A stretch of DNA of 64,000 nt from Terfezia claveryi (lineage: Eukaryota; Ascomycota; Pezizomycetes; Pezizales; Pezizaceae), in assembly GCA_015179025.1 (NCBI GenBank), contig WHUX01000153.1:62001-126000 (forward strand), in the 5' to 3' direction. Under the pieces are notes generated by a model that did no database searches, had not been told where the DNA came from, and saw nothing but the letters and a program-made list of their open reading frames with translations. The position numbers were made by a program, and so were the translations under genes. Each line of letters begins with the position of its first letter. Positions within the stretch are counted from its first letter, which is position 1. This document shows, piece by piece, positions 4,582-60,835 of the stretch.

Positions 4582-4590
4582 GTCTCGTGC

Positions 4591-4643
4591 CCGCCCTACC
4601 CCGTTTGGCGGGGGTGTTGTGCCAACCAGACTACCGCCCTACC
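4591..4643 (+). mobile_element. Ultra-short hairpin element with 10-bp direct repeats
   Basis: A 33-bp body at 4601-4633 ends GTTGTGCCAACCAGACTA. It is bounded by perfect 10-bp repeats CCGCCCTACC at 4591-4600 and 4634-4643. The body can fold as two small hairpins (CCG/CGG and GTTG/CAAC). The left repeat is itself preceded by TAGTCTCGTGC at 4580-4590, which resembles the opposite end of the same family. Related copies: 14914-14951, 18000-18113, 20131-20179, 40873-40922, 41186-41228 and 59362-59409. Confidence 0.7.
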
Positions 4644-4907
4644 TCTACTACCAAGGCCCATTTGGGACTAGTCTCAGTATTAACTCCACTGACTAAACAT
4701 GGGAAACCTCCTTAGGACAATCACATCTCCTTGGCTGTTAGGAAATCCTTTTGAGGGAGGCGGGATTCGAATCTACGAACACAATTGCATTCCCCAGGAT
4801 GATTCAGCCGGAAATGTCGGGATCTGGTATGGCACTTGTCAGTTGCAAAATCATGTCTGACTACGGTCGGTCATGGTATCAAAAAATCCGCCCATCTCCA
4901 GGAGTGC

Positions 4908-5016
4908 CTTGTTTTCTTTTTTCTTTTATACCCATTCCTCATATACGATTCCGGAGAGAGGACCATAATGTGCAACCCGAAAATACGGCTGGATACAGGA
5001 GCAAGGCAAGTTAATC
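4908..5016 (-). repeat. Old LINE-tail copy
   Basis: Reads on the minus strand from AGATTAACTTGCC through a GGATACAGG (plus-strand) block to a T-rich end near 4908-4925. It is strongly diverged from the copy at 332-461. It abuts a second copy at 5017-5076, apparently inserted at the boundary. Confidence 0.5.
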
Positions 5017-5076
5017 TTTTTTTTTTTTTTTTAAATACTTATTACTCCTATGCAGCCCCGTAGGCAAGTTAATCTG
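5017..5076 (-). repeat. LINE-tail copy with internal deletion
   Basis: A 16-base T run (5017-5032) is followed by TTACTCCTATGCAGCCCCGT, then directly by AGGCAAGTTAATCTGC. It is the tail element with its middle missing. The poly-T on the plus strand shows minus orientation. Confidence 0.6.
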
Positions 5077-6252
5077 CTGCGTCCGGCACTGATACACGGA
5101 TCAGAAAGAAAGGATGAAAGATAAAAGTTAACCCCTTGATAAAGGTACGTAACATAGCAGGATTGCTCTAAATGGTAGGATGACCTGGGTTGTTCAAAAT
5201 CATATGAAGTGCAGGACAATCATCTTTGTTTTAAATATCTGCGCCCATGTCAAGCAGCACTAAAAGCTTTGATCTGGCCCTTCCAAGCTGCTCTATGAAG
5301 CGTGTTAGAATCGCCTGTGTGCTTGGAAGTGACCCCTGCACCCGCTCCAGTAGCAGATTTAGAACCTCTAAAACGGGTGTGGCTCGACTATCAGGTTCCA
5401 GAGGTGTGGCAAGCTTGAGGGTCTTGTATCCTGGACTGCATGCTGCCATGAAGGAACCACATGATGTTTCAGAGTTTGGCTTCAAACCGCCATCACCCTA
5501 ATGATCGATTGAGATGAGGACAGCAGGATTTATTTAGGTTGAGGGCAAGGTCTAGAACCACCTCATGCCGTTGGTTTTCGGTGCGCTGGCGCTATGCCAT
5601 AATTTGTAATTTTGAATATCTCTTCCTCGTTACCCTTGAGCATCTCCCGCCGTAACATTATTGCTATATAAAAGGCCCTACGTATCTCCCTCCATACTTC
5701 CTTGTGACCTATGCTAAGGGCGAAGGAGGCAATCGAGTACATTGATGCAACTGATGCTGTACGCCAGAGACTTCTGTTTGTAACTGGAAGTCGCTGGTCT
5801 ACCTACAGCTGGAGCCCGACAAGTCGTGCATTTTGTTGAACAATCTGTTTCATGGACCGAGCAATCTGCTTTTGGAAGTTGGTAGCTGAGTATTTGCGAC
5901 ACTCAAATCAATACCACCATTATCATCTGCTACTGACATTATGGTAAGAGTGGAAACGTCGCAGTATGCTGGTAATATCGTAGTGTTCTGGTAATGTCGC
6001 GTGTGCAGAGTATTACAAAAGATATGTGGAATATGTTGTTAGGCAGCGGAAAGGTACTAGCGACGGAACACGGGTGCAGGCGGATCTATAGCTATATGCC
6101 TACCCTAGCGGATGGTAATGCACGGAGTGGACAATAGAAGTTTCAGAGTGTACTTAGAGAGAAGTGAACGATACGGAGTGTAGATTTGCTGAATTCTTAG
6201 GAAAATACAGGTCCAGAGCGTTGTCTATCTACATGAGAAATTCAGGATAAGA

Positions 6253-7066
6253 AATGGCGCAGGGATGTTTTTTTTTTTTTTTTTTTCAAAAGACTCAGTA
6301 CTCCTATGCAGCCCCGTTAGGGGGGCTATGAGGAGCCACGCGGAAACCCGGTGGATTCAAGGGAGAGGCAAGTTAATCTGCCAACCCCACGCAAACTTAA
6401 ATACACGAACTTGCAGAAGGCCCTATGCTGTCATTAACGGACTTAGCCGATGACCCGGAGGCCTGACTGGTACACGACTACGAAATGAAGAACTTGAAGG
6501 ACTAGAAGCTGAGGTAAACTGGAAATAACCGCGTGAACTGACAGAACTGAGATAAATGGGACTAAAATGCAAGGAAACTCGTGAAAATTCGTAAATCTCT
6601 CTCTTCATCTCCAACCTCCCGACGGCAGCGGCATTCCCGACAGCTCCCTACATAAGCTCATGGTATAGGAGGCTGAAGAAGGCCTCCGTAGCTTCGTATC
6701 TCTCTTCTCCTTCCCCTTCTTTCCTCCAATCCAGTTCGTCGAGCTCCTCCCAGCTCCTCCTCCCCCCAATAGACCGCTGCGTATCCGGTTGAAGCGTGGG
6801 CAGTCGAAGAAGATATGTTCTCCGGTCTCAGTGGGGTGACCACATGTGCATGCTGCTGATTCCGCCTTGCCGATATGGTGAAGCCAGCTCCGTTGCGGGC
6901 CTCTGTTAGTTCTTAGCCAGGTGTAGGCTGACAGGGCTTGTCGATTCCACTCCACTCTTCTTACCCCGAAGCCCGCCTTTGTTCTTGCTTCCTTTCGTCT
7001 CGCTTTAGAGGCTGCGCGTAGCCCTCCTTCTGTTGTTGTCTGTTCCTGGCATGTGAATTCCCCCAG
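6253..7066 (-). mobile_element. 3' part of a Tad-like LINE (C-terminal ORF2 and tail)
   Basis: Target duplication AATGGCGCAGGGATG lies at 6253-6267 and recurs at 14569-14583 on the far side of the split element. The LINE tail is the poly-T at 6268-6286. The minus-strand frame ending at 6605 encodes the ORF2 carboxyl end, with the Cys/His cluster CTCGHPTETGEH...FFDC (around 6790-6860) that follows RNase H in fungal LINEs. The reading frame runs without a stop from 7066 to 6605 and joins, across the inserted gypsy element, with 13299-14568: the codons on either side of the GTGGG duplication read through in phase. The 3' untranslated part (6287-6600) carries the sequence that also moves as the short tail repeat. 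Confidence 0.85.
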
Positions 7067-7097
7067 GTGGGTGTAACAACCGTGTGTTCAGTTGTCA

Positions 7098-7167
7098 TCA
7101 CCTGCGATCGCAGGTGACGGGTCATTGCCATTGTTGTCTTTGTCATCACCTGCGATCGCAGGTGATG
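7098..7167. promoter_or_regulatory. Paired perfect palindromes in the LTR U3
   Basis: TCACCTGCGATCGCAGGTGA (7098-7117, 20 bp) and a 24-bp version with the same core (7144-7167) sit at the LTR start, 26 bp apart. Both are perfectly self-complementary and recur in the 3' LTR from 12764. Position upstream of the TATA box suggests a binding site for a dimeric factor or a structural role; the function is inferred only. Confidence 0.6.
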
Positions 7168-7490
7168 GGTTATTGTTATCGTTACCTTGCTTGGCTTCCG
7201 AGATAGGGAAGCTTATTTCCCCCATTGCCCTGGCCGGGTTATGTATATATAGAGCCTGTCCCTCGTACTGTCGTTGGATCCCCATCCAACGTCTTGTATA
7301 CCCAATACAGGACCTTGCTTCCCCCAGCGCTTGTGCACCTCCCTTGTGCACATCCTTGTCTCGAACAAACAACTCTGCAGTACAGCTGCCTCCCTTGACA
7401 CACGCGGCAACTGCCTCCGCGTGTCTCGTGTCCCTTGCCCTCTGCCTCTTGCCTCTTGCCCTTGCCCCCGTCTCAGTCTTCCCCTGGTCA

Positions 7491-7562
7491 CACACGTAGC
7501 GTTCCTACGTGTGTCTTACCCTAGCCTTTCCCCCGATCACACACGTAGCGCTCCTACGTGTG
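7491..7562. repeat. Two hairpins CACACGTAG/CTACGTGTG in the LTR
   Basis: 9-bp arms with 5-base loops at 7491-7513 and 7540-7562, near the LTR 3' end. A third imperfect hairpin (ACACGCGG/CCGCGTGT) lies just upstream around 7401-7424. The same set occurs in the 3' LTR. Such stems near the R/U5 part could affect RNA 3' ends or packaging; this is inference. Confidence 0.55.
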
Positions 7563-7663
7563 CGATTGCCCCTTGCCACTTCCCTGGCGTACCCCTTGGT
7601 CGCCTTGTCCCCAGAGCCCTTGTTACACTACGTTGGATCTTCTCGACCAACTGGTACGCTGTC

Positions 7664-8848
7664 ATGTCCGGAACCCCTCCACCCGCTGTCAGGTTTCAAA
7701 CCTGGAGGAACTCCCCTATACCCTCAGGACCGAACGAATTGAATGCCTATTGTCGAGAGATCATCGACATCTTCGAGGCCATGGATGCCATCGGGGCCGA
7801 ACTTGGCAATAGCTTGGCTGTGGCTGAACGAAAACTGAGATCCGCCGATGAAGAAATCACAGTACTCCAAAACGACCTTGACAATGCCACCATCACTCTG
7901 GCCAACGAGCGAACCACGATCCAGACCCTCAACCGCGCTATGGCCGCTATGTCGGCAACCCCACCCTCCGCACCAACCGCCAAAACCGAAAGTATTCCAA
8001 CCCCCTCCAAATTCAATAGGGATAGGGCTCGCCTCTGAGCTTGGAAGAACTCGGTAAACCTCAAACTCAATGGGGACTCAGCCAGATTCCCATCCGAGCA
8101 ACACCGATTGGCTTATGTCTTTGCCCTGCTGGAGGATAAGGCAGTAGATCAAATCCAGCCATATGTCCTCGAGACTGGGATTAAGCTAGATGGTATCCCG
8201 GCACTCTTCGCTATTCTAGACAGGGCTTTTGGGGACCCCGATGCCATGGGCATGGCTAGTCGAGCCCTCCGAGCCCTGAAACAACGTAATTCGGATCTGT
8301 CCACATATGTGGCAGAGTTCTCTAGGCTGGCAGCAGAAGTATTGTGGAATGACCAGTCAAAGCTCGAGCAGTTCCAGGAGGGACTGAATGACAAACTTCA
8401 ACAGGCCATGGTCACCCTCCCAGAGACCAAGAGTCTCGACGAATTAATCGACCAGGCATCCAGGGTGGAACAACGGATGGCTAGGTTGAGACACCGCCTT
8501 ACCTTCCGCCCTGCCACCCGCTCACCTCAGCAACTACAGCAACACCAACCATAGCAACACCAACAACAGCAACCGACCCCCAAGCCTGCCCAAGTCCCAG
8601 CCTCGGCCAACAAACCCGCGCACCCCTCTCTCGTAGCAGGTGGTGCCGCGCCTATGGACCTATCCGCAGGTAGGCCACGGTTAACCCAGGAGGAGAGAGA
8701 TTGCCGTCGGAATAATGGGCTATGCATAGCCTGTGGGAAGGCTGACCACTTCATTGCGGCTTGCCCCCTTCGAAAGAATCACTCCCTGGCCATACATGCG
8801 GTGTCCGAGACCCCAGAGGAGTCGGGAAAAGCGGAGTCCCTTGCCTAG
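7664..8848 (+). pseudogene. gag of the chromovirus, with internal stops
   Basis: The frame starts MSGTPPPAV at 7664 and includes a coiled-coil-like segment (ERKLRSADEEI...), the capsid region (YVFALLEDKAVDQ..., TYVAEFSRLA..., WNDQSKLEQFQEGL) and a CX2CX4HX4C zinc knuckle CIACGKADHFIAAC at 8723-8764. It is interrupted by TGA at 8036-8038 and TAG at 8552-8554, the latter in a glutamine-rich stretch where CAG or CAA is expected. TAG at 8846-8848 may be the natural end. Gag would form the virus-like particle and bind the RNA. All three parts share one frame, so only the stops break it. Confidence 0.85.
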
Positions 8849-9533
8849 TTGCTGACACTAGCAAGGGACCTATTATGGGTCATTTATCTTTGTCTGTGTT
8901 TTCCTTGCCTGCATCTATGTCTGTTGATGAATCTCGCTTGTTTGGCGAGCATTTTGTAGTACCAATAACTGTTAAATTCAATAGTAAAACAGTGTTAACA
9001 TCAGCTCTCATAGATTGTGGTGCTTCAGGGATAGCCTTCATTGATCAGACCTTCGTCAGTAAAAACTCCATACCAACCTCCAAGCTAAAGACCCCCGCCT
9101 TCTTGATGTCATTGACGGCTGCCCTATCTCTTCTGGGGCTATTACCCATCTTGCGTGTCTGCCCAGTGCCATTGGAGACCATTCGGAGGACCTCCCAATA
9201 TTCATGACCAAACTAAAATATCCAATTGTCCTTGGGATCCCCTGGCTCAGAATGCACGATGTGTCAGTCAGCTTCGGCTCTTACACCTTGCAATTCAACA
9301 GCCATTATTGCAGAACAAACTGTAGAGGTCCAAAAATCACCGTCACGGGGCTATGTGCATTACCACCCCCGATAATCCACCCAACCCAGGTGGTACACCA
9401 GCCCGCACACATCAATGCTGCTCACTGCCCTGCTCCCCCTGTTCCCCCGTTCCCCCGTTCCCCCGTTCCTCCCATTCCTCCCGTTCCCCCCGTTCCCTCT
9501 ACTCCCCCTGTTCAACCTCCCCCAAAGCCCTGA
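8761..9533 (+). pseudogene. Protease region of pol, frameshifted
   Basis: Overlaps the end of gag in another frame, as is usual for pol. The aspartic-protease signature is LIDCGASG near 9010-9033, with Cys where Asp-Ser/Thr-Gly is usual, so the active site is probably damaged. The frame continues to a second block IVLGIPWLRMHDVSV at 9220-9265 in a different phase, showing a frameshift between about 9100 and 9200. A proline-rich linker (PPVPP repeats, 9430-9530) follows and ends in a stop. Confidence 0.75.
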
Positions 9534-9534
9534 A

Positions 9535-12500
9535 TATTAGCTTTATTGGGGCAGGGGCTTTCGCTTACCTCACAAGGAGACACAAGCTGAAGGCGCATGC
9601 CCTTTCCATACATGAGGTGAACCTAGAAATCAACAAGATGCGACCTAAGGAGGAGTGGAAGGCTATGGTCCGGAGGAATACTACGAGTTTATTGATCTGT
9701 TCTCGGAAAAAGCCGCGGAGAAGCTGGCGCCCCACCGACCATATGACCACACAATTCCACTGGTAGAGGATAAGACCCCCCCCTATGGGCCCCTCTATGG
9801 AATGTCCCGGGTGGAGCTGGAGGCCCTGAAGAAATACTTGGAGGAAAACCTCAACAAGAGCTTCATTCACCATAGCTCTTCACCAGCGGGTGCCCCAGTG
9901 CTTTTCGTGAAGAAATCGGACGGCTCTCTCCGTTGTGTGTCGATTACTAGGGCCTAAACGAGATAACGGTCAAAAACAGGTACCCCCTACCCCTAATCCA
10001 GGAGACATTAGCCAGGCTCTCCAAGGCCAAATGGTTCACCAAACTGGATTTAAGAGGGGCTTACAACCTGGTACGGATCGCCGAAGGGGAGGAGTGGAAA
10101 ACTGCCTTCCGAACACGATATGGCTATTTTGAGTATAATGTGATGCCCTTTGGCCTAACCAATGCTCCTGCCTCCTTCCAGCACTTCATCAATGACACCT
10201 TGCGGGACTTCCTCGATGTGTTCTGCACAGCTTACCTGGACGATATCCTCATATACTCGGACTCCCTAGCGGAACACAAAATCCATGTGAAGCAGGTGTT
10301 AGAGAAGCTGGAGAAGGCCGGATTATACCTAAAACCGGAGAAATGCGAGTTTCATGTGCAGGAGGTCAAGTATCTGGGGTTAATCATCACCACCGAAGGT
10401 ATCAGGATGGACCCTGCCAAGATTACCGCTGTCTAGGAATGGCAAATCCCAGCGAATCTCAAGAATGTCCAGGCATTCCTAGGGTTCGCCAACTTTTACC
10501 GGTGCTTTATCCTGGGATATTCGAAGATCGTAGCCCCCCTCACCGCCCTGTCCAAAAAAGACCGGCGCTTCGACTGGAATCCAGAAGCCCAATCTGCCTT
10601 CCAGAACCTCAAGGAAGCCTTCTGCTCAGCACCGATCCTGGCCCATTTCGACCCAGACAGTGAATGTATCGTGGAAACTGATGACCCGACTATGTCTCCG
10701 CGAGGATATTGTCTCAGTATGTCGATGGAGTCCTTCACCCAGTAGCCTATTTCTCCAAAAAGCACTCCCCGGCAGAGTGTAATTACGAAATCTATGATAA
10801 AAAGTTAATGGCCATTGTACGAGCATTCGAGGAATGGAGACCACACCTGGAATCGGCAAAGGGGGTTATCGAGGTCCTCTCTGACCATAAGAACCTAGAG
10901 TACTTCACAACCACCAAATTGCTAAATTGCCGACAGGCTAGGTGGTCGGAATTCCTCTCTCGGTTTAACTTCAAGATAAGGTATCGGCCGGGGAAGGCTG
11001 GGGGTAAGCCGGATGCACTGACCAGGAGATCAGGAGATCTCCCTAAAGGAGGGGATGAAAGGCTGAAGTACCAGAATCAGGTGGTACTGAAACCTGAAAA
11101 CCTCGACCTGGCAGCTAATACCCTTGCAGAAGCTGAGGCTGACCTCCGACAACTAGTGAGACAGGCATATGAGGACGACCCCCTGGCCAAGGAAATTATC
11201 ACCGCAGTGGATTCTGGCCAGTGCCCCCACCCCAAGATCTCCCTAGCCGAGTGTACCATCCAGGAAGGCCTCCTCTACCACCTCGAACGGCTGTATGTGC
11301 CGGAAGGAGAGCTGCGCCTTCGATTGATCAAGGAACACCATGACAGCCTGGTTGCAGGTCACCCTGGAGTGGCCAAAACATTAGAGCTTCTGGCCAGGGA
11401 ATACACATGGATTGACCAACGGAAGGACGTGGAGTGGTATGTATGGAACTGCCACGTTTGCAAGCGTGCTAAGCCTGTCCGCCATGCCCCGTATGGGACC
11501 CTGAAACCTCTGGATATCCTGATCGGCCGTGGCTGCACCTGACTATGGACTTCGTGACAGGGTTGCCAGAAGATTCGGGGTTCAATGCCATCTTGATGGT
11601 GGTAGATCAGTTGACGAAAATGAGGCATATTATACCTTGCCGGGACACCTGCTCCGCCCCAGAGTTAGCCAATCTCTACCTCAATAATGTATTCCGATAC
11701 CATGGCCTTCCTGAGTCGATCGTATCTGACTGTGGCCCTTAGTTTACCTCAGAATTCTGGCAAGCCTTCTGCGAACTTCTGGGGATCAAAGTACGCCTGT
11801 CAATGGCATATCACCCCCAGACGGACGGCCAATCGGAGAGGATGAATGCCATTATGGAGTAATATCTGCGGGCCTTTGTCAATTACTAGCAGGATAACTG
11901 GGTTTCGTTGCTAGCCACCTGCGAATTCACTGCGAACAACCAGTTCTCGGAATCCTCCAAAACCTCCCCTTTCCTGGCTAATTATGGTTGGCACCCCCGG
12001 TTCGTGGATGCCCTAGCGCCCCTGCAAAAAGCCCACCCCCCAGCTAAGGAGTTCGCGGTTGGAATCGCTGAACTCCACTGTACCCTGAAAGCCGAGCTGG
12101 GATATGCGCAAGCCCGGCAAGCTGAGTATGCCAATGGATCACGGTAGCCAGCCCCCAGATATCAGCCAGGAGACAAAGTGTGGCTTTCCAGCCGGCACTT
12201 CCGAACAGAACGCCCCTCCCGCAAGCTGGATCATAAATTCCTGGGACCCTTTGAGGTGTTGGCTGTTGTGGGCACTCATGCCTATCGATTGAGGTTCCCC
12301 AAGGACATCAAACGCCACCCGGTTGTACACGTATCGGAAATTGAGCCAGCGGCTGACGATCCCCTCCCAGGGCAGAAACACCCCCCTCCCCCTCCTGTGG
12401 TGATCGAAGGTGAAGAGGAGTAGGAGGTCGAAGAGGTATTGGACTCAAGGAAGAGGTATGGTCATCTGCAATACAAGGTCAAGTGGTTAGGGGACGAGGA

Positions 12501-12597
12501 GACTACCTGGCAACCTGGGGAAGACTTGAAAAACGCACAGGACTTGGTCACCCTGTTCCACCAACGATACCCGAGGAAACCTCGCCCAGTTGAATGA
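9535..12597 (+). pseudogene. pol: reverse transcriptase, RNase H, integrase, chromodomain
   Basis: Reverse transcriptase: [12 protein letters not shown] (about 10031-10066), [11 protein letters not shown] (10149-10181) and the catalytic YLDD (10233-10244). RNase H follows (SQYVDGVLHPVAYFS..., YDKKLMAIV). Integrase has the HHCC zinc site (HHDSLVAGH...CHVCKRAK) and a D-D-E core (MDFVTG, VSDCGP, SERMN). A chromodomain with YKVKWLGDEETTW ends at TGA 12595-12597. Stops: TAG 9948, 10434, 11740, 11887, 12145 and 12421, TAA 11860. Several stand where chromovirus proteins have Gln (for example GPQFTSEFW and MEQYLR), so CAG-to-TAG change is likely. Frameshifts near 9655, 9940, 10690 and 11525 complete the damage. 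Chromodomains guide insertion toward modified histones in this group. Confidence 0.9.
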
Positions 12598-12737
12598 TGT
12601 CAGACCTTTTGCATTCTTGTTGTTGTTTGGAGTTGGGGTTCTTGTTTCTACCCTTGTTGTTGTTTTCTGTGTTGATTTTGCCGGTTATCGTGCCCAGGCC
12701 TCCTAGTCGCTGGAGCTCCAGCCTAAAGGGGGGATAG

Positions 12738-13293
12738 TGTAACAACCGTGTGTTCAGTTGTCATCACCTGCGATCGCAGGTGACGGGTCATTGCCATTGT
12801 TGTCTTTGTCATCACCTGCGATCGCAGGTGATGGGTTATTGTTATCGTTACCTTGCTTGGCTTCCGAGATAGGGAAGCTTATTTCCCCCATTGCCCTGGC
12901 CGGGTTATGTATATATAGAGCCTGTCCCTCGTACTGTCGTTGGATCCCCATCCAACGTCTTGTATACCCAATACAGGACCTTGCTTCCCCAGCGCTTGTG
13001 CACCTCCCTTGTGCACATCCTTGTCTCGAACAAACAACTCTGCAGTACAGCTGCCTCCCTTGACACACGCGGCAACTGCCTCCGCGTGTCTCGTGTCCCT
13101 TGCCCTCTGCCTCTTGCCTCTTGCCCTTGCCCCCGTCTCAGTCTTCCCCTGGTCACACACGTAGCGTTCCTACGTGTGTCTTACCCTAGCCTTTCCCCCG
13201 ATCACACACGTAGCGCTCCTACGTGTGCGATTGCCCCTTGCCACTTCCCCGGCGTACCCCTTGGTCGCCTTGTCCCCCAGAGCCCTCGTTACA
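12738..13293 (+). repeat. 3' LTR of the chromovirus
   Basis: 556 bp, nearly identical to 7072-7627: one C fewer in a C run near 12985, one C more near 13277, and two substitutions, one of which changes the terminal TGTTACA to CGTTACA. It carries the same TATA box, palindromes and hairpins. Followed by the GTGGG duplication. Confidence 0.95.
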
Positions 13294-13298
13294 GTGGG

Positions 13299-14583: not shown

Positions 14584-16173
14584 GTTTATTCGGCCAATCA
14601 GAAGCAAGAGAATACAAGGCTTGCGGATGCGGTTGGCTGGCAACACAACTGACTCAATCCGACATACTTGCCTTGCGTATGTAGATTCAGCTGATTATTG
14701 TGGTGGCGGCGATGGCCTCGCCAGGGGATAATCCGGGGTAGCGGCGACGCTGGATAGCGCAACCACAACGATAACCGGGTGTATTGGGTATGCGTTTTAA
14801 CAATGTTGCATTGAAGAGTATGTTGCGTTGAACAGTAGCTGGTTGTTGAACAGTATTGCTGTTGCAACGAAGAAATTTTTTAAGGACTACTTAAAACTTT
14901 CAATGCGGAATCCAGTCCATTTAGTCTCGTGGACCCGAGACTAAGTCTATTCCGCTATTGACTGGATTCCGCAACGGCTACCGTAGAACAAATATATCTT
15001 ATCTTTATCTCCGTCAACCTACGGGACAAATCGACAAAAGACCCCTTCCTTTCTAGCTATTCGTGTTTCATACGCAAATACGCAATTCGTTAAAGAGGTG
15101 GGACATTCCGGCATATAGTGGAGGTACTCTGGTGGGAATCAGGATGAAGGGTTCAGGTTTTGCTCGAGCAGGCCAAGTCAAACAACCTCCTGGTGAGAAG
15201 CTGTGCTCCGGTCTATCAAGTTTACAGGCGCCGCTGCCCAGTGGTGGGGCGACTATGATACGTCGGGGAAGCCAGCAACTGCTGGAAGAAAGCCTTCAAG
15301 TTGGATGCGCACTCCATTCCTGATGGTATTGTGGAGGTTTCACTTTATGAGCTCCTGGTCCAGCAGTTAGGTCCCTCTATTGATGCGCAGCAGGCGGAGC
15401 TGGAGCTTGAAGGTTACAAGTGGAATCCCATGGACAAGACCACCCGGCGAATACAAATGTGGAATTTCCAAATTCAGCAATAGTTATCGCCCAACTGGAC
15501 ATGTTCCCGAGAATAATGCAACTTCTGGCAATGCAGGCCAACGCCAACATGATCATTTACAGTCCCAACCTCCCCCCCGCCTGCGCCTCTCATCCTCTCA
15601 TGATCAACTATCGACCTACACCTACGCCCACCGTCAACTCACTACACATTAAGACATTAGAGACCCTTCCAGCAAACATCACCAGCAGCACCACTATTAT
15701 CTCCGATACCAACACTGTGACAGCCAAGGCAGGCATCACCCCCAGCCCAACGAGCAATATGACATCCCCCATTGTAATCGTTCCCCTCAAAGCCCGCAGG
15801 AGGAAGCCACGAACAGAGCCAGGTTTCGGTTTCAGAAGGTCAGAGTGGAACAGACACCCCTCTCGGCTCACACTAGGCTACGTACAGACCGGCCCTGAGG
15901 ACATTTGGAACAAGATTTTTAATCTCAAAGAAGTTCTTTATAAGGTATTGAAGCAGGTCATTTACTTCTATTTTATCTTAAATTCCATTGTGAGTTGAAC
16001 TTCATCAAGTTCTTTCGGGCTGCTGCTAAACGACATGCTCACGAGAACTGTGAGTACTCTTTACAAGGTTTACGAGATACCCATTCCTTTATCATTTGAA
16101 GTCTGTATCTGAACTGACAATCTGGCGCTTCTATAATAAATGTCAGTGAACTATGAGTGCATACCTATAGAGA
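14584..16173. other. Gene-poor stretch with small inverted repeats
   Basis: 14904-14973 is bounded by 14-bp inverted repeats TGCGGAATCCAGTC/GACTGGATTCCGCA and contains one mini-element. 15200-15480 has an open frame (ending near 15483) with a protein-like segment SIPDGIVEVSLYELLVQQLG of unknown origin; 15420-15998 has another long frame, Pro/Thr-rich. Neither shows a domain, and they probably descend from a dead element or gene. Confidence 0.4.
14914..14951. mobile_element. Ultra-short element, nearly palindromic, with 8-bp repeats
   Basis: The 22-bp body TAGTCTCGTGGACCCGAGACTA minus its last two bases fits in 20; the complete body spans 14922-14943 and is almost its own reverse complement. 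Flanks are AGTCCATT (14914-14921) and AGTCTATT (14944-14951), an 8-bp repeat with one C/T difference. It sits inside the loop of a larger inverted repeat. This is the shortest and most symmetric member of the family, showing the shared ends TAGTCT and AGACTA. Confidence 0.6.
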
Positions 16174-16824: not shown

Positions 16825-17235
16825 GATGTCAATATGGAAAAGCAGATTTTAGCAGCATATATATAGAAGTCCTTCCTGTGATTATTTAGACACGAACCTG
16901 CAAAACAGAGTACACAATAGAATACACCGCTTACCGAGATCCAGGAATATCTCGGACAGCGGCTTGCAAGTACTTGCCTCTATCGCATAGGATTGGTTAC
17001 ATCCTTGTAGATACTCGATTGCCCGACCTGGGTGCAGCAAACCCCAAGAGGAATTCGAAGTACCGAAGGAGCTATTCAGAGAGAGCTGTTTTGCAATAGT
17101 GTCATGGAAGATGTGATCAAGGCTAAAACGAAAAAAATAAATTTCAATAGATACTCATTACTCATATGCGGTCCCAGTAAAATAAACTGGAGTGCCGATT
17201 AGCAAACGCAAAGTAAGTGAACGCGAAAGATGAAC
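16825..17235. other. Short gene-less stretch
   Basis: Contains a diverged partial LINE-tail copy around 17120-17190 (ATACTCATTACTCATATGCGGTCCCAGTAA, seen in parts). Nothing else is recognised. Confidence 0.4.
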
Positions 17236-17733: not shown

Positions 17734-18629
17734 GAATATGACAGGAGCATATAAGAGACAAATAAACAGATATACGGAAGTACAGGGGCCGATTTTGCTG
17801 ATTTGTTATTGAGTTCTTTATTGGGGTTTTCCGCCCCAAACCAGCGCTTGATATGTCGCCAGGTAGCCTTGGGGGTTTGTTCGGGGTAGGTTCTCTGGCT
17901 TGACGTTCACTTTCTGACCATGCATGGCTGCCGATGCGGAGTATGAGAAGATCCCAACCAGCTAGAAGATGCTATAATCTGCAACGTTTGCGGAGCGGGG
18001 TTATTTCTGGACTGGTTGGCACAACCCCTGGTTATTTCCCTCTACGAGGGTCTGGGCACGAGACCAGTTATTTCCCTCTACCGAGGGGTTGTGCCAACCG
18101 GACTAGTTATTTCTTATCGATGAGCCTCTCTTTGTAGCTTAGTGCATCTCTAGATATGCATATCTATGGTGACTGAGCGAAAAAAATACGAATATTCTAG
18201 TATCTAAGATATGCTTATTTACTTGTCTGGCTTACTTATTTACTGGCGGAGGTATGCTGTATCCAATATATGCTTACATACATCTGGTATGCTTGTATCG
18301 AGCAACTAATATATCTGTGGGCTCCAGCTCGGTTGTAGGTGTAAATCGAGAGAGCATGACTGTTCCATTCTGATCTCCGGACTCCAAAACCTGGGGATGT
18401 CCGTGCTTCGGTCCTGTGTTGCTTAGATTCCCGCCTGATCCCGCTAAAAGGTAAGAGATCTCAAGCTATTTCGAGCTGCCCACGTATCGAGTTTCGGTGG
18501 AAATACTAACGACGATTACGCGGTTCAGGGGCCGGAGTCGAAAGGAGCAGGGACAGCCAGGCCAGGACAATGGATTGGGTGATATTGGGAAACACGATAA
18601 ACGAAGCCGGCCGGCGTAATCCCACAGTT
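17734..18629. other. Gene-less stretch apart from a mini-element array
   Basis: The array at 18000-18113 is the only clear structure. 18150-18620 is AT-rich at first, then mixed, with no convincing frame. Confidence 0.4.
18000..18113. mobile_element. Array of three ultra-short elements alternating with four copies of one 8-mer
   Basis: GTTATTTC occurs at 18000-18007, 18031-18038, 18067-18074 and 18106-18113. Between them lie three related bodies: 18008-18030 (23 bp, with GGTTGGCACAACCCC), 18039-18066 (28 bp, with CCTCTACGAGG) and 18075-18105 (31 bp, with CCTCTACCGAGGGG and TTGTGCCAACCGGACTA). The first is in the opposite orientation to the third. Each body thus has its own pair of identical flanks. 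This is what repeated insertion at the same target, or stepwise duplication, would leave. Confidence 0.75.
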
Positions 18630-19271: not shown

Positions 19272-20562
19272 AAATTTCTTAAGCCAGATACCATAGGCGT
19301 TGCTCCTTCAATGCGGGAATACCTAGTGCTGGCCGTGGGGAATAAGTTTGATTCACTTGTGTAGATATGCCTGCGGACCTGTCGGCTTTAGAGTTCCACT
19401 ATGTACCTACCAGAGCGTTCTTAGGTAGGTATTTGCGATTATGCTCCAAGTTGACTTCTTGATCAAACTTGTCAGACAATATCAGGAGCCCGCTCTCATC
19501 ATATTATCTTTTTTTTTTTACATTTTAAGTACACCAAATGCTGTGGAATAAAATTTTGTTAGCACCACATCCCAACCTGGTCGATATCAGGTACTTAATA
19601 TTGATTCTCGCTAGTAGGAAGTAGTGTTGATTCATGATAGTGTATTGTGCGTTGCAGTATTGGTTTCGTGGGCTCATGCTACCTGTTTCTTAAACCTAAT
19701 CGTACATAAATTCTGAACCCACAGCCGATACGATTATAATACACTCAAAGTATTATGTGGGCCCTGCTCGTGCCCGTGCCTCCTACGGTACATGCTACAG
19801 CTCAAGCAAGACACTTCATCTGTAAGTCATTTCAAAAAATTACCCTCAAAAGAACCAATTTCTACACCTACACTTGCTGGTAATCAGGAATATGAGGATT
19901 CAGAGAATTTATTAGACCATTACGTATCAACGCTTACCTTATACCGATTCCTATCAGGACTGCTCAATGATAATACAGTCCAGCTTTTCTATCGCAGGTG
20001 TTGATGTATTGAAGCTGCTTAACTTGATGTCTCTCCCACCTCCTCTGGAGTTGTTTCTGGTCCCCCTAGTCCACCTGTAATAGTTCCCCCCTCTGTTTCT
20101 TTCTGTTGCTCTTTCCATACGTACAAGACTAGCGCTTGCCTAGTCTGGTTGGCACAAGCCTCTCGTAGAGAGCGCTTGCTCATCTTGGATATAAGAATAT
20201 TCCCCCCCTCCTGCAAGACTACGATTGACCACATGCCACAGGTACCTGCAAAGTGCTAGCTGAGTTGCAATCGCCGGTTACCCTCAGCCACCCACCGCGG
20301 CTTGGCAACTCCTTCCCACCCCGATAAGGTGCCAGTGTGGCTGCAAGAGGGTCAAGACTTAGATAAGCAAGCTTATTGGGCACAGCTCGCTGGCCACCCG
20401 ATGATCCCCTCTCTCCTCTTCAACCTCACTCTTTCATTCCCCCACAGCCCTCCACACTCCTCCAAAGGAGGTTCGTGCCCCACACTACTGCCTCACCCTC
20501 CTTCAAGCAGTAAACTCTGTCGCCCCCTCCTCCCACGCTACAACGGTTTATATCCTTCACCC
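19272..20562. other. Gene-less stretch upstream of the 885-aa gene
   Basis: Holds the mini-element at 20131-20179 and a short fragment of the 16174-16824 element (GGATATAAGAATATTCCCCC at about 20186). 20240-20562 is probably the 5' leader of the following gene: C-rich, with an in-frame upstream ATG at 20401 that I do not choose because the following residues are low-complexity. Confidence 0.4.
20131..20179 (-). mobile_element. Ultra-short hairpin element with 9-bp direct repeats
   Basis: The 31-bp body at 20140-20170 starts CTAGTCTGGTTGGCACAAGC and ends CTCTCGTAGAG. It is flanked by perfect AGCGCTTGC at 20131-20139 and 20171-20179. Read in reverse it matches the 59371-59400 body (CCTCTTCGAGGGGCTTGTGC...) and the 18075-18105 body. 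The left repeat is preceded by AGACT, as if another element had ended there. Confidence 0.75.
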
Positions 20563-40672: not shown

Positions 40673-40883
40673 TACAGCGTCCGACGGTACAACCGGTCAG
40701 CTAACCTGACAAAGTTAACCTGGCTATACACGGTACGTCCAATCCTATTTACATCGCCGTGCACTGACTTTTCTGAATTTTTGATATTTGACTACCAAAG
40801 CCTAGTCTCCCCACGCCGACCTTGGCCCCCTAGGTTAGCTGACCGGTTGTCCAGTCTGACCGGTTGTACCGTCGGACGCTGTA
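40673..40883. mobile_element. 207-bp MITE with long inverted repeats and TA duplication
   Basis: Body 40675-40881. Left arm starts CAGCGTCCGACGGTACAACC and continues to 40707; the right arm (40832-40881) is its complement except for a 17-bp duplication (GACCGGTTGT repeated at 40841 and 40858 around CCAGTCT). TA occurs at both ends (40673-40674, 40882-40883). CAG termini, 33-bp inverted repeats and TA target point to the Tc1/mariner superfamily. No coding capacity. Confidence 0.8.
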
Positions 40884-40922
40884 GTCTGCGAGGGTTAGTG
40901 CAACCAGACTACGGACGCTGTA
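40873..40922. mobile_element. Ultra-short element inserted at the edge of the MITE
   Basis: Body TAGTCTGCGAGGGTTAGTGC-AACCAGACTA (40882-40911, 30 bp) has perfect TAGTCT/AGACTA ends. Direct repeats CGGACGCTG (40873-40881, 40912-40920) extend to CGGACGCTGTA because the next two bases also match. The duplicated bases are the MITE terminus plus its TA, so this element arrived after the MITE. Confidence 0.75.
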
Positions 40923-41185: not shown

Positions 41186-41228
41186 GAAGCCATTAGTCTC
41201 GATCAGACCCTCGTAGAGGGGAAGCCAT
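41186..41228. mobile_element. Ultra-short element with 8-bp direct repeats
   Basis: 27-bp body 41194-41220 starts TAGTCTCGATCAGACC and ends CTCGTAGAGGG, like the 20140-20170 copy without its GGTTGGCAC core. GAAGCCAT flanks it at 41186-41193 and 41221-41228. Confidence 0.7.
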
Positions 41229-49300: not shown

Positions 49301-50049
49301 AATCAGTATGACATGAGTATAATACTTTGTAAGTAATCAAATTCGACGAGTATAGTGTCAGAAACAGATTAGATACTGTGACATAAACTGTATAGAGTGC
49401 CAGTCGATGTTGACACAAAATCTTGTTCTATTTACTTATGTTTATCTTTTACCTAGGAAATGCTAAGGGCTTGGCACTCTTACCAATTTTGGCGCAGGCC
49501 CTCCCGCTAGAGCTCCATAGCTCGTGGGCATATTTTGTAGCGTACACTTTTTATATTTTATAGGAGTAGGTCTTAGTCTCACGAGATGCCAACCAGACTA
49601 AGTTAGATCTAGACTCATGCATTCCAGAGTGGGAGGTCTATCTTCAACCATATCGCAGCCTGCGATGACATACTAGTTCCCTTATAAAACGAATACCTTG
49701 CTCTTTATAACCATTCGCCTAGTCTGCCAATGAGCTTCCAAAAACTAGAGTGGGTTAACACTACAAGCCCATTTTTCAACAGCCTAATATGATTTCAACC
49801 TATGAGCACTCATATTAAATTGAATCGTTCTTGAAATTAAGGTGGACTGGATTTACTTTTAGCTAGCATGCTTACTCTGTACAGAATCGAGGTATAAATA
49901 AAATGGGTGACATATCCTTAAATAATAGAGGTTTACACTATCCACGAATCTCCATCATGTATTATCAAAAAGGACTCATAACATCGGATCTAATAAACGT
50001 CGTAATACACTCCACAGCCACCTCAACTTAAACCCCCGAAATCACTCCC
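46321..50049. other. Gene-poor stretch
   Basis: No supported gene in 3.7 kb. A plus-strand frame at 48643-49008 (VVIDHQSSHVYQLLEMSELL) looks protein-like but has no domain. Partial mini-element ends (TAACCAGACTACCT) occur at 46876 and 47922, and one with both ends at 49574-49600. Confidence 0.45.
49574..49600. mobile_element. Possible ultra-short element without clear direct repeats
   Basis: 27 bp, TAGTCTCACGAGATGCCAAC-CAGACTA, with the family's ends and GCCAACC core. Flanks TAGGTCT and, three bases away on the right, TAGATCT are only similar, so the insertion signature is not proven. Confidence 0.45.
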
Positions 50050-53000: not shown

Positions 53001-56000
53001 GGTCATGATTCATCCAGAAGAGCCTGCGCGCCATGCCTTGAACTTCTGGATGGTTGTGGGTATCCGGGTAGTCCTTTAGGCTTGGATAAAGGTTCTGTCG
53101 AATGAGATCTGAGATGGAGGGATGCATTCGCCGTTGGGTATCAAGGGTAGCAAACGGGAACTGCAGACTAGTGTAGGAGAGGTCATATTTCTCTCTCGTC
53201 AGTCTCTCAAACAAAGACTCATCGAGTGCGTAGTCCACCCCTTGCCTGCTCTCCATGGAAAGACTATAGTTTGAGATATGTGGACGCAGTTGCTGGTGGT
53301 CTCCAATCAGAATTGCATGCTCCACCGAGGGTAGAATCGCCGTCAGGGTATGCGCTTCGAGAACCTCGCCCGCCTCTTCACAAACCATAACCTTTGCTAC
53401 CAATTTTCGTAAAAGTGAAGCCTGACCAGCAAGTCCTGTAGTTGTTACTCCAATAACCTGTGCATTGTGTAAACAACGACGATCCCTCTCCTGGTACATT
53501 TTCTTCAAGTCTTCTTGTGCAATCTTCCATGCGGCGGTTGCCTGCTGTAGGTTAGCTAGTAGCTCTCCAGTGATGTTGCTCTCCCAATACGCCTTCAGCG
53601 ACACACGCTCAGCACTGCTCAGTAGGCTTATGTCTCTACACCCGAGAATCTGCTCCATCGTTCTTTGTCTACCCACGCGATCGAGAATCGCCTGTGCTTT
53701 TGGTTGTTGAAGGAACCTCGAATGAACCCAATCATCAACCACATGTTCTGGCTTTCGATGGGATACTACCTCGAAGCCCTCCTCATCGAACGCCGCGCCA
53801 AACAATTGATTGCATATTGCTGGATAATGCTGTTCTAGATAATCTCTTAGCGTTCTCCAATAGAGAACCATGCTCAATTGACTGCACAAATCTTGGATTT
53901 CCTGGATTGACAATTCCAGCAGCTGCTTCTTTCTCCTGATCCCGGATCGCTCCACGAAAGTTGACTCAACCTTTTGAGCCACGTTCCAGAGTGTGTAAGG
54001 CTCCAGCTTTTCCTCTTTTGAGCGAGAACCTAGCCGCACAATTCGTTCCACTCCGCTTTCCAGAAGATCGACAAGAAATTGATCCAAAGCATGATTTGTA
54101 TAGCACCTTTTATTGATTTAATTAGCTTATTTCTCCTTTGGGGTATTTCAACTTCCGCGAGATTTGTGGCATCACTTACACACAGACAATTGGTCCAAGC
54201 TTGAGTTTCCCATTATTGTGCAACAGAACCTTACAAAGCTGCACCCCCACATATGATTTTCCTGTCCCCGGTGGCCCCTGAATCAAAGCCAGCTCCCGAG
54301 TCAGGCCACCAATCAGTGCCTCACATTGACCACGGTCTAAAGTCGTATATTCTTGCAATTGAGCCATACTGCATGGATTTCTAATTGAATGCGTGAGTGA
54401 GACATGCTTATACTTATCCTCCAGAATGACCGACAAGTCCAAAGTAATATTCCCTTTCGTAAGGTAGAGCGGAGGAGGCACCTCAATATGCGTGGGATTT
54501 ACGGGATCCGCAGACGGCTGGCTATCTGCACTATTCCCCTCCGGAGCAAGTAGTTTGGAGAACGGAACTGTCCTCCTCAAGATCATATTTTGAAGAAACC
54601 TCAGAATCGGTTCAAATGAAGCGAGTAACATCCCTGGAAATTCAATGAGATAGGGTAGAACGTGATTCCTGCCCCAAGTCTGCTTCAACTGGCCATGGTA
54701 CTGTTTCACAAGTGTCATAAGATCGCTTGCAACGTCAACCAGCTTCACGGTGACAAGTGCTCTGGTTGGATGGTCCGCCAGATTTTGCGGTTTGAGAGGC
54801 ACCCGCTGTTGGTTCCCTCTGAACCTGTCATTCGCTTCGGGGGATCGTTCTGAAACTATCATGAAGGAGAATTCTTTCTTTTGCTGATCAATTAGACACA
54901 ACAGCGCCCCGCTCTGCAGATTCTTGTATTCCATCCAAAACCTCCTCCTCGCCATGGCATCCGGCTTCGACTTTGTTAATCTCTGTGGTTGATCAAATGA
55001 AACGTCAATCTGCAACCCATCCCTGTCCGCCGCCTTGAACCTCTCCAACTCCACACGCTTATAGATAACTACTTGAGTTCCATTCGGTTTCACTGGTCTG
55101 TCAGGGTTTTCTGTCAAAGCGTCCATCGTGTATCTAATTGCATCACGCAACTGTCCCGAGGTATCCTCTCGCAACAGACGAAATTGAGTATCCAATATCC
55201 TGACTATACCGGGGGGTAAATGATGGGCTTTCGGATGGTAATCCTTCTTTGGAAGATATTCGTTCCTCATTACGCACATAATTTCCCCTCGCGTAGGAAG
55301 AATTCTGATATCCCTGATAGAGGCTTTGTCGTTGTCGTGGCGAGCACCATTAAGAGACCAATCACCGGGAAAATCAACATCCCTTTGGTAATTCAAGCCT
55401 CCGGGTATCGTTGTTAAATCTGCAATCCCTAGCTTTTGTTCCACCTTGCTGACCTCTTTGTCTGCAAGTCTTGCCGCGTATTCAATACCGCCAGACTGGA
55501 GACACAGCCTGAGAGTCTTGCCAATATCCACAAACTCTTTCTGTACTTCTGCGCTTTGATTAAAGTTCAAAGTCATCGATATTGCACTTGCTGCCGCACC
55601 AATCGCAGTCCCAAACTCAGCCGACGTTCGACTGATTGCTGTTGTCTTTTTGAGATGGTCCGCAACGTGAGAGAAGAAGGGCACTCCACGAGTACCGGAG
55701 TGGCCATAGATAAAAGTATATATCGTCCCCACGGCGTTTTCGAGCACCAACGAGGAACGTAATTCCTCATCCGTGATTACCATGAGGAATGGCACACAGT
55801 GATTCCAAAAGGTCAATGTCCGCAATTCCGAAGTGTCGCCTAAATATTTTGCTTCCACAAAATACCTAACACGTGCCAGACCCCGTATGTCGGCTAACTC
55901 TTGGACTAATTGCTGCTTGATGGACGAGTTCTCGGATTCCAAGATTCCCTTTGCGAGTGTGAGAAAGTACTCGGCCTCGCTGGGAGTGAAAGTAGCAGAG

Positions 56001-56363
56001 CCGGACATTAATTTCGTAAGGTCCTGGAGTTTTTTTTCGATGGGGTTCCGTTCTGGTCGCTTCCCATGGTCTCGGAGAACTCCCCTATTAGAAGTAGCTG
56101 GAAATCCACCAGCTCGCGAGGGTGCTTGATGAGAAAATTTACATCGAGGACCGTATGTACATTTGCCTTTCTGAAACTGAAAGCAAATTTGGCTCTTTGT
56201 ATTGGGAGCTCCAGGGGTAAAATCTGGAGTATTTGGTCCCTTTCGTCTGCCAGGGCTTTAGCGGAACTGTGACTCAATCAATGCATATTTGGGTATGAGC
56301 AACAACCTACCCATCAATTCCCTTACCAGGAGTATGACCTCCTCGGCCCCGCTTTGAACTCAT
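50050..56363 (-). CDS. NFX1-type zinc-finger SF1 helicase (ZNFX1-like), 1989 aa
   Basis: Six exons: 56363-56311, 56255-54180, 54106-52678, 52606-52506, 52416-50253 and 50196-50050; all five introns (55, 73, 71, 89, 56 bp) keep phase. Order: Gly/Arg-rich start; a CX7CX5CX3H zinc finger (residues 42-60); a long N-terminal domain; SF1 helicase with Walker A GPPGTGKS (near 680), CEEAGE, LIGDHQQLRP, TQRRMHPSI, VDNFQ|GEEAK and the final SRAKHGMYI; NFX1 Cys/His repeats (CGHACSTKC, CGHSCTELC, CGHRCPSVC) from about 1255; a coiled coil; and a C-terminal RZ-type finger. The family acts on RNA and is tied to silencing or RNA surveillance in other eukaryotes. In the RZ finger one expected Cys (ECG) is Tyr (RYG), so it may be weakened. 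No RNA-silencing neighbour. Confidence 0.92.
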
Positions 56364-59361
56364 AATGTATAGATGTAGATGACAGTGGATGACAATGCTC
56401 TGTATGTTTAAGCAGCTCCTATGGGGTTTCTGATGATTGACAAAGTCCGCTTGAGAAGGGACTATTTATGGCAAAACGTAAGGGAGAGTCTATACAGTCG
56501 GTGACCCTGGAATATTAGAAACCGCCATTGGGTAAAACTGAGAGAACAAACAACGCACAATTAATATAAATTTATATGTGGATCCACATTCAACAGAAAA
56601 GCAATGTAGCAATGTCAGCACACATAACATAAAATCAGGATACGCAGTAATGGCCACAAACTCCGTTCGCTGGAAGGCCTTACAGGAGCTGCAGGTCGCT
56701 GGGGGCCTTGATGCAGGCAGCCCAGCCGCACGCACACGAGCACAAACAACAAATAATAGGTCAAAGGGATTCTGGTCTGTAGGGACATCACTTATATATC
56801 TTTATGTGCGAATACCCATTCGGGCCCAGCGGTGCCTGATTATGTCCTGCCAGTTGGTTGCAATTTTCCAAGTCTATTTGCTGAAGAGATATAAGACTTG
56901 CAGGTAAATGTACTGTCCCTACTGCCGGATTGCTGATCATGTCCATCACCGTTGCTTCTACGACGGGAGGGCCTGGAGATATGACAAGTTTGTCTGACGA
57001 ATGGATGTCGCCTAATGACTGGAATATTTCGCCGCATCCGCGGAGCGAAACGCCCCGCGAAGATATGAGCTCCCGGAATACCAAGGACAGTCTACTATCG
57101 AGAGTTCAAACGCTCTGAGTGCAAATAGTACTAGGGCATATGTAGTTAACATGGCACTATTGAAGTTTCCCCCTTAGACTGTACCAGAATACCGTATATA
57201 CGGATAACCAGGCAGTGGACGAGATCGTAGATTCCGGCATCTGGCAACCAATTAGAGTTTCCCCAGGCATCGGGGTTTGTAACACAAACCTGGATGTTGG
57301 TTACACATCCGACTCTAAATAGCTATCTAAGAGTATTTTGCCGGATTGGGCAGTCAGTTCTGGCTTGGGCAGGAGTAGGTGCCGTAGTTATACTAATGTT
57401 TATACTAAGACGCTGTTCCTAGACTGTTAAGACTGTTCACCTTTTGAGACAACAGGGAGAAACCAAGTAGATGTAGGACATTACCCTTCTCAGATACTAT
57501 TCTCAGGTCAATGTACCTCAGAAAATAAAACCAATCATTAACATTCTCGGCTTTGCGTAAATAACTTTGTTGGAGCGTCGGCTGGTGGAGTTAAGGCAGC
57601 ACCCAGGAGTCTTGACTCTAAAATGGTAATCTTGTTTTTTACTGATGCGTCATGTTTTAAGTAGATTCTAGATCGTCTGGGATGGCCTCTGCTACTGGAT
57701 ATCCTCAATCAAGATGCACAACAGGTCACTTTCAAAGACAATCGAATCCACACAAAGACATACCTACTCAACTCGCTGCCGACAGGGCACTCCGTGGGGA
57801 CACCAGACTCCCCTACTACCTACTCCCAACATTGTACTTGCTAGACCAGCCCCCCTAATTGGTAATGCCTTCATAAAGTCGGCGGCTGAGGCCAGCGCAG
57901 CGCTGCCCAATCAAATCGGTCAATGTCCTCGATCTTGTTACTATTACTGGTAACTGGTGGTTCATCGCTCGAGAGTATCATACTTAGGACCATCCAGCCT
58001 ACCCTCTTCTTTGACGTGGAAAATTGGGGCGCAAAAAACCGACATGCACATATGCACATCTCCAGAGGCTGACAGCAGTCCAACTGGAGGCGCATATTCC
58101 AATAACAGCCAAAGCTGTGGAAAGTTGGTAGTGACCTCGCTGACTCGTATATAGTCTGTAACGCTTGGTGCCGAGTTCCCAGGGCTCCCCAGCAGCAGTT
58201 GTCGAGGGCCTTGTATCCGTCCAGGCTGCAAATCCGGGAGTACGGCTTTCTCGCTCTGCATTACAGCATCAATATGTTTGTCCCCGTAGGTACTGAAGTT
58301 GTTGAAGATCCGATAACTAATATTGAAAACGCACTCCTGGCAACCCATCTTCCTGGTGAGGCCTATGAACCAGAAATCGAAGCTCCACCACCTCCTCCTC
58401 TGGTTACACCTTTATCATATATTGAAGGGTTGCTGCTCTTCTCACTTCAAGGTGACCCCTCGGCCAATACCACTGCCCTACAAGATTCTCAAGCCTGAGA
58501 AAACAGGATTGATATTCTTGAGATGGAATGCAGGCGGCAGCATGTCCAGCGCAGTATAACTGATTTTTTGGGGTCCGTCCGGATCCCCCTCCTCTTCCCG
58601 ATATCACTGATATTTGTATACATGTCTAGTATTCGTTGTGTCATTCCGCAGGCTTTCCTACCTAGTTATGAATTGGCTATAAGCACACCTTCCCCCGTCC
58701 CGAGGATATGCTGTAACGAGAGTCATCTGTATATACGACTTTCATTTATGTAAGCGACACCCCAAACAACTCAAGGGCTCAAATGGATGTCGACTTTGTG
58801 TGTAGTTCATGGAAACCTGCTTAAGTATCCGCACTGACTACTTACAAATTCCCGGTCATGCTACTTATGTATACATATATTCAAGCTAGCAAGGCTGCCC
58901 GCTCGGACTACATAGAAACATTATCCCGCAGACACCTATGTACAGAAGTACTCACCTGAATGGAAATGCAGCCTGATAAATTGAGTTAGCAAGAATAAAT
59001 GCTAACAGCCGCAGCTTTGAACAGGCGTCAGTCAAAGACACGTTGCCTTGCATCCCGTCTGCTTTTTCAAATTTTCTGCATGTGATCCACAGGCAGTTAT
59101 CTGTACACTAGTGTGCCTGCAGTCAATAGTTAGTGATTATACAATCGAACTCGATAAGATCAGATGCCCTTGGATTCCATATTCTAGCTTCATACTGGCT
59201 TCAAGTTACTGGTACTTACTAATGCCATTCTACCCAATGACAGAGGAGACAATCAAGACCTGATCAGTGGGGGTAGGCTAAATGATACGCTTTCACCAGT
59301 CTGCGGTGTGCATATTGATGGAAAGTTCCCTTGCGCTTGCTCCCGAGTGCCTGGTTGGCAC
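56364..59361. other. Gene-poor stretch upstream of the helicase gene
   Basis: The first part is the helicase promoter region. A plus-strand frame at 58272-58498 (VVEDPITNIENALLATHLPG, then a run of prolines) looks like a coding exon but lacks partners or domain. Minus frames at 58348-57962 are not convincing. I see no RNA gene. Confidence 0.4.
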
Positions 59362-59409
59362 GCAAAATTGCCTCTTCGAGGGGCTTGTGCCAACCAGACA
59401 GCAAAATTG
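59362..59409. mobile_element. Ultra-short hairpin element with 9-bp direct repeats
   Basis: 30-bp body 59371-59400 (CCTCTTCGAGGGGCTTGTGC, then CAACCAGACA) between perfect GCAAAATTG at 59362-59370 and 59401-59409. The left repeat is preceded by CTGGTTGGCAC (59351-59361), complementary to GTGCCAACCAG in the body, so a second element end abuts it. Confidence 0.75.
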
Positions 59410-60616: not shown

Positions 60617-60698
60617 CCCCCGTTCATCAGGGATGGTTAGGAATCATCCTAACCGTCCCGTAACCACAAAGCTCTAGCTAAATAAAAAAAAACCCAAA

Positions 60699-60794: not shown

Positions 60795-60835
60795 TTCTGC
60801 CTCATCCATCCACCCTATCCCCACATTGCTATGCT

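Follow-up and report, generated by a model that had tools for sequence, protein, structure and literature searches.

Miniature inverted-repeat transposable elements (MITEs) are non-coding, carry inverted terminal repeats and duplicate a target of fixed length; they are usually tens to hundreds of bp long and have both ends. For the other systems relevant here we draw on excerpts of the cited papers. Tm1 of root-knot nematodes, a Mutator/foldback family, makes target duplications of 8-10 bp, mostly 9 bp, with no target consensus (PMC3169594), and Muta1 makes duplications of 8-9 bp, also with no clear consensus (PMC5225508). In yeast mitochondria, the GC clusters (GC42) include partial and merged palindromes sharing one conserved end (PMC4478555), and double-hairpin elements are known from the mitochondria of several fungi (PMC10085805). 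Mariner/Stowaway scars, finally, leave element end sequence between the copies of the doubled target (PMC4561436). Here we analyze a family of very short palindromic elements with ends TAGTCT/AGACTA, found in a stretch of 64,000 nucleotides of Terfezia claveryi DNA (assembly GCA_015179025.1, contig WHUX01000153.1, positions 62,001 to 126,000), which we call the window. The nuclear genome carries thousands of these tiny inserts, about 7-54 bases long, many of them between 9-base copies of their target. They are far shorter than typical mobile DNA, and most keep one of two matching ends.

The window is part of contig C61 of an assembly of 72.56 Mb in 794 contigs. ORFs and their homologues suggest a filamentous fungus; the best matches of the 722-aa ORF are unnamed proteins (68-70%), and the named ones among at least 120 matches include Lasallia and Arthrobotrys (34%). 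The motif of the L-type end, TAGTCTGGTTGGCACAA with up to two mismatches, has 4,334 matches in the 72.6-Mb assembly (2,170 + 2,164), while the same pattern read backwards has 13. A second end type, R (TAGTCTCGTGCCNAGACCCTC), gives 228 matches, with 0 in the control. The elements are spread across many contigs rather than located in mitochondrial DNA as double-hairpin elements are, and viral contigs hold seven exact 16-mer matches. Closer analysis was based on a 308-kb sample consisting of 200 kb of C1 (unselected), the window, two further loci and 60 short stretches near listed motif matches. These 60 loci were chosen for an exact 17-mer, without regard to repeats, and under-represent the shortest bodies; exact TAGTCT starts were taken separately from an unbiased set of 264 kb. 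Among open-licence PMC papers, the family 15-mer and its complement were found in none, and coined names for such elements led only to papers with surgical titles, papers using other names being possible.

An excess of flanking direct repeats over chance, on which the first-pass annotation had made its claim of mobility depend, turned out to be large. With up to two mismatches, TAGTCTGGTTGGCAC has 119 matches in the 308-kb sample. A repeat was called when a direct repeat of 7-12 bp with at most one mismatch reached a script score of at least 6 (the listing threshold being 5), and the null paired upstream flanks with the downstream flanks of other matches. Such repeats flank 75 of the 119 matches, compared with 2.4% in the flank-swap null; the 75 count three palindromes (L072, L076 and L082) from both ends. 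For the 264-kb set we required a direct repeat without mismatch, 8 bp or longer, no more than 110 bp from a TAGTCT start, with 60 permuted hexamers as the control. It was present at 25 of 173 starts, compared with 91 of 8,066 (1.1%) for the permuted hexamers (binomial p ~4e-20). From the 25, two artefacts of tandem repeats (bodies 66 and 76) have to be removed, and the element at 40882-40911 is counted from both ends, which leaves 22. Extrapolation of these 22 repeat-flanked elements in 264 kb gives some 6,000 genome-wide, and they would thus be a measurable source of small insertions.

The repeat length has its mode at 9 bp (36/75), with 8 bp in 10/75. The duplication is thus of constant length, as in MITEs, and falls within the 8-11 bp of the Mutator superfamily, while the 8 bp of hAT elements is not the mode. 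The range of 8-11 bp given earlier holds, narrowed in this way, and a nine-bp duplication points to the Mutator superfamily rather than to hAT (8 bp). Among 51 repeats there is no strong target consensus; the base beside TAGTCT shows a mild preference for G/C (38/51).

Copies of genomic repeats provide the empty sites. The repeat unit at L093 contains a body of 30 bp, and its target is present twice. An empty version of this unit, made in a script by removing the body and one target copy, has 47 matching stretches in the genome, including that of L093 itself; L101, L102, L104 and L105 (L101 and L102 differing by one base) align to it gap-free over the junction and contain a single target copy without a body. 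At L112, a 32-bp palindrome lies in a doubled target, the second copy being ATTTGGAA, and the window copy of the same repeat (4644 onward) is empty at 4660-4667; other copies also cover this site, and the letters were compared for the window copy. Since the target is single in the repeat copies that lack the insert, the elements are insertions. Elements are also nested in each other, at L058 (twice), L110 and C1:174454, and by our reading of the table about 8 of the 75 repeats consist of fragments from older copies:

C1:174454, L051:106, L058 (three), L063:361, L068:363 and L079:292: target repeats made of older copies

The repeat excess, the paralogous empty sites and the nested insertions together bear out the earlier view that the duplication of a different sequence at each site is the mark of insertion, and a nuclear, ultra-short mobile family, as it was put there, is a fitting description.

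All bodies and flanking repeats reported for the window by the first-pass annotation were verified letter by letter at their coordinates. With the additional features found here, they are as follows:

4580..4590, plus strand: R-type end TAGTCTCGTGC, adjoining the left repeat of the element with body 4601-4633, its own left-hand repeat missing
4591..4643, minus strand: one-armed element, body 4601-4633, between CCGCCCTACC copies at 4591-4600 and 4634-4643
4660..4667, plus strand: unoccupied target ATTTGGGA in the window copy of the repeat whose L112 (C157) copy is occupied
14914..14951, no strand: two-ended palindrome of 22 bp, TAGTCTCGTGGACCCGAGACTA, body 14922-14943, flanked by AGTCCATT and AGTCTATT, one mismatch
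18000..18113, no strand: chain of bodies 18008-18030, 18039-18066 and 18075-18105 among four identical GTTATTTC copies
20131..20179, plus strand: one-armed element, body 20140-20170, between AGCGCTTGC copies
40873..40920, no strand: two-ended 30-bp element, body 40882-40911, between CGGACGCTG copies
41186..41228, plus strand: one-armed R-type element, body 41194-41220, between GAAGCCAT copies
49574..49600, no strand: 27-bp body TAGTCTCACGAGATGCCAACCAGACTA, both ends retained, no flanking repeat
59349..59361, plus strand: degenerate L end GCCTGGTTGGCAC, opposite the next element across the GCAAAATTG repeat
59362..59409, minus strand: one-armed element, body 59371-59400, between GCAAAATTG copies

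The right flank of the element at 4601-4633 is a repeat starting there, and its left flank lies outside that repeat. This repeat, at 4644-4793, is an interspersed one of about 150 bp, with at least 42 matches, 40 of 189 candidates having been scored. In its 3' part, GGATTCGAATC resembles what we take to be a tRNA-type B box, so that it is perhaps a tRNA-derived short interspersed element (SINE). At 40673-40700 and 40856-40883 there is a perfect 28-nt inverted repeat with a spacing of 155 nt, whose right arm takes in the target copy belonging to the element at 40882.

In its complete form, an element is a palindrome of 22-54 bp with the ends TAGTCT...AGACTA. The shortest ones flanked by repeats measure 22 bp (R type, window 14922) and 23 bp (L type), and the longest 54 bp. 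Two facing exact ends were found at 25 places for ends of 15 bases and at 51 for ends of 10 bases, with 0 in the controls; at least one of the 25, C223:931647, consists of two bodies with a target word between them and not of a single palindrome. The first three of the 25 all have a repeat. Fifteen palindrome loci, chosen for variety of length and not randomly, were fetched, and of the 16 palindromes they hold, 10 have an exact 9-bp repeat and one an 8-bp repeat with one mismatch.

The scoring counts 70 of the 75 repeat-flanked copies as one-ended; inverted ends on both sides are seen at most of the 76 facing-end places. The 70 lengths fall into 14-15 bp (11 copies), 17-24 bp (5), 26-36 bp (49) and longer (5), the last being palindromes or composites of 46-58 bp that were mis-scored at a trimmed end. 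The unbiased 264-kb set adds bodies of 7, 10, 12 and 13 bp, and one-armed, repeat-flanked copies are thus mainly 7-15 or 24-36 bp long. A small terminal hairpin is present in 29 of the 55 longer one-armed bodies (mean 12 and maximum 20 in 300 shuffles). These bodies resemble arm plus loop of the palindromes: 15 bp is stem and loop (10+5) of the 25-bp form, the body of 24-25 bp at C1:128476 agrees with the 34-bp form found at C1:88848, and bodies of 26-36 bp fit the forms of 50-54 bp. The suggestion that the elements might be collapsed remnants of a terminal-inverted-repeat transposon keeping its two ends is thus correct for the complete forms, which are two-ended, but not for most repeat-flanked copies, and no long element with these ends was found in the sample. 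At L057 (174-315) an element copy lies within a 58-bp tandem repeat of 2.4 units, which means that elements can be amplified as minisatellites. At L079 (224-381) there is an element of 158 bp with ends TAGCCTCGTA, a 9-bp repeat ACCATACAC and two nested one-armed copies inside; it is perhaps a longer relative of the family.

Several bodies can share one target word. Besides the window chain at 18000-18113, with four target copies and three bodies in the order L, reversed R, reversed L, the following were spotted by eye rather than by a systematic count:

L048: chain, four target copies and three bodies
L103 (G000:C223:931500-931800): chain, three target copies and two bodies, the third copy overlapping an element end
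Window 4580-4643, window 59349-59409, L045 and L064: chain-like, one outer repeat missing

Except for L064, each of the seven places is bounded on both outer sides by a TAGTCT end. Elements of different subtypes struck one and the same 9-bp word in the repeat that L093 and L103 share, at L103 twice. It is important to point out that none of the models considered below accounts well for the sharing of one target repeat by several bodies.

We now turn to the mechanism. A fixed 9-bp duplication together with inverted ends implies insertion by cut and paste (DDE chemistry), a step that rests on known transposon chemistry. The explanation that we favor, with a probability of about one half, is that the elements are foldback "micro-MITEs", that is, ultra-short non-autonomous DNA transposons moved in trans by a Mutator-type transposase that duplicates 9 bp. 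The complete form would be the palindrome of 22-54 bp with ends TAGTCT...AGACTA, which a transposase supplied in trans, most likely of Mutator type, would paste into a 9-bp staggered cut, doubling the target. For the loss of half a palindrome, we infer that the transposase may cut one end cleanly, with the second break, at excision or at insertion, lying at or close to the tip of the hairpin. The result would be a single arm with its loop, directly abutting the target repeat, and such copies, having no second end, would be immobile and would accumulate.

A partner enzyme was sought among the domain matches of the genome, which comprise 21 to Mutator-like elements (MULEs) and at least 150 to hAT. 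Three of the 21 MULE loci were examined, two of them, C773 and C60, short of their outer ends. The third is complete at both ends:

L121 (G000:C89:27600-31200), element 715-3332: Mutator-like element C89, with a 9-bp duplication (TGCTACCTA) and ends CGGACTGACTCTGGACAGG..., each end bearing a 23-bp hairpin

The host thus has elements that duplicate 9 bp and have hairpin-bearing ends, but with other end sequences. For hAT, the one locus inspected shows no TAGTCT, and its sole candidate with an 8-bp repeat has ends that agree at 8 of 14 bases. Pairs of ends more than 100 bp apart comprise the 158-bp element at L079 with its nested copies and two pairs of 7,444 and 11,698 bp; the ends of the latter two match poorly, and we set them aside as chance. 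The idea that small size lets the elements escape repeat-induced point mutation (RIP) was dropped: the substrate index is never below 1.03, the product index exceeds 0.89 in many stretches (maximum 1.07), and there is no clear sign of RIP.

Several observations weigh against the micro-MITE explanation. A search of three of the 21 MULE matches and one of the 150 listed hAT matches yielded no transposase gene with TAGTCT ends. The C89 ends, CGGACTGACTCT, differ from TAGTCT, and the two other Mutator-like elements show other inverted repeats, their outer ends being unread. At 23 bp, an element is much smaller than is usually assumed necessary for two transposon ends to pair. Exact ends facing each other were found at just 76 places, against thousands of single ends, and the repeat is absent from 5 of the 16 fetched palindromes and from the window body at 49574-49600, and absent or weak (score below 5) at 42 of the 119 matches. 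The empty-site comparison that had been proposed between strains was made here, at two loci, between paralogous repeat copies within one genome, where it gave one target copy each time, in favor of insertion, and not between alleles or strains.

A possible, though doubtful, alternative is that the inserts are excision scars of a kilobase-long Mutator-type transposon with TAGTCT ends, now lost or very rare, each scar being a piece of 7-36 bp, from a single end or from the two ends fused, between target copies. The two-ended forms indeed resemble an L(n) fused to a reversed L(m), n and m being variable. In yeast assays of Muta1, donors without target duplications occasionally leave up to 13 bp of terminal repeat; donors with target duplications, on the other hand, mostly excise precisely (26-28 of 30 in the rows examined) (PMC5225508). 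The end motif bound by MURA, of about 32 bp according to an excerpt of its description (PMC3310237), is near the upper limit of the one-armed lengths. Against this alternative, no credible long element with TAGTCT ends and a matching 9-bp repeat was found in the 308-kb sample or the later loci, for pairs up to 12 kb apart. Furthermore, nothing past position 36 is common to the 119 matches apart from neighboring element arrays and local repeats, as filtered, and the C89-type family, which is still present, has 24 end matches genome-wide (control 5) and no swarm of scars.

We regard it as unlikely that the one-armed copies of 7-36 bp are instead the primary products. Here the transposase would insert a folded single hairpin of about 25-50 nt, whose open end and a nick beside the loop at its tip serve as the two ends, and palindromes would arise by copying through the hairpin. 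This would account for one-armed lengths that match arm plus loop of the palindromes seen (15; 24-25; 26-36), for 15-bp bodies nested in other copies (L058, C1:174454) and for junctions that are flush on both sides and show little additional microhomology: among 51 exact repeats of 9 bp or more, 19 are longer than 9, with 25% expected if random. The bodies of 7-13 bp, however, are too short to hold an arm and the loop of the common palindromes. No single-hairpin intermediate was seen here, and we know of none for a eukaryotic cut-and-paste transposase. If true, this would be a new mode of integration and, to our knowledge, the smallest mobile DNA of a nuclear genome, and repeated use of one target would build the chains at 18000-18113, L048 and L103.

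Retroposition appears very improbable. Reverse transcription of a small RNA ending in GUGCCAACCAGACUA at nicked targets would produce a constant 3' end, truncation at the 5' end and duplicated targets, and one flush constant end with one variable end is what the one-armed copies have. Yet SINEs and long interspersed elements (LINEs) have duplications of variable length and a 3' tail, while here the length is tight around 9 and there is no tail; the exact two-ended palindromes also speak against it, and no source RNA was seen, Rfam giving no match in the window, the only region searched. Chance direct or tandem repeats around a common motif, which do make up 2 of the 25 cases in the 264-kb set, are practically excluded as a general explanation by the flank-swap null, the permuted-hexamer control and the empty sites.

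Two observations in the window concern other repeats. Two adjoining direct-repeat families (254 and 291 bp) occur at 7071-7612 and 12737-13277, about 5.67 kb apart, and their 100% identity indicates a recent duplication of about 540 bp. Neighboring tandem arrays with periods of 29 and 27 bp lie at 60697-60794 and 60829-60909.

The family is nuclear mobile DNA at a size where insertion has hardly been looked for. Length cut-offs in repeat finders and transposon annotators would miss such elements, and similar families may be common. Two questions become testable: the minimum length of a transposon, and the fate of a palindrome whose ends a transposase cuts.

Compared with known systems, the elements are like MITEs in being non-coding, with inverted ends in the complete forms, a fixed duplication length and thousands of copies, and unlike usual MITEs in being mostly single arms of 7-36 bp. 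With Tm1 and Muta1, as far as the excerpts describe them, they share a short target duplication without clear consensus (8-10 bp, mostly 9 bp, in Tm1 and 8-9 bp in Muta1), with Tm1 also composite foldback-type ends (PMC3169594), and with Muta1 the remnants of terminal repeat that excision sometimes leaves behind when the donor has no duplications (PMC5225508). Unlike Tm1, of which one element measures 1080 bp (PMC3169594), complete elements here measure 22-54 bp and most copies are one-ended; unlike both, no transposase with the same ends was found, three of 21 MULE matches having been examined. The GC clusters and double-hairpin elements are likewise short, palindromic or double-hairpin, apparently mobile DNA, but are mitochondrial in the cited accounts, whereas the present family is nuclear and has 9-bp target copies; the comparison with the Allomyces double-hairpin elements made earlier is apt as a structural analogy and goes no further. 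Like mariner/Stowaway scars, the elements place element end sequence between target copies; in the cited excerpt, however, mariner footprints are short end sequences and those of Ac/Ds palindromes of flanking DNA (PMC4561436), whereas here hairpin-ended pieces of 26-36 bp occur in thousands. It is the combination of nuclear location, complete forms of 22-54 bp and 9-bp duplications that distinguishes the family from Tm1, Muta1, the GC clusters and the double-hairpin elements as these are described in the excerpts cited.

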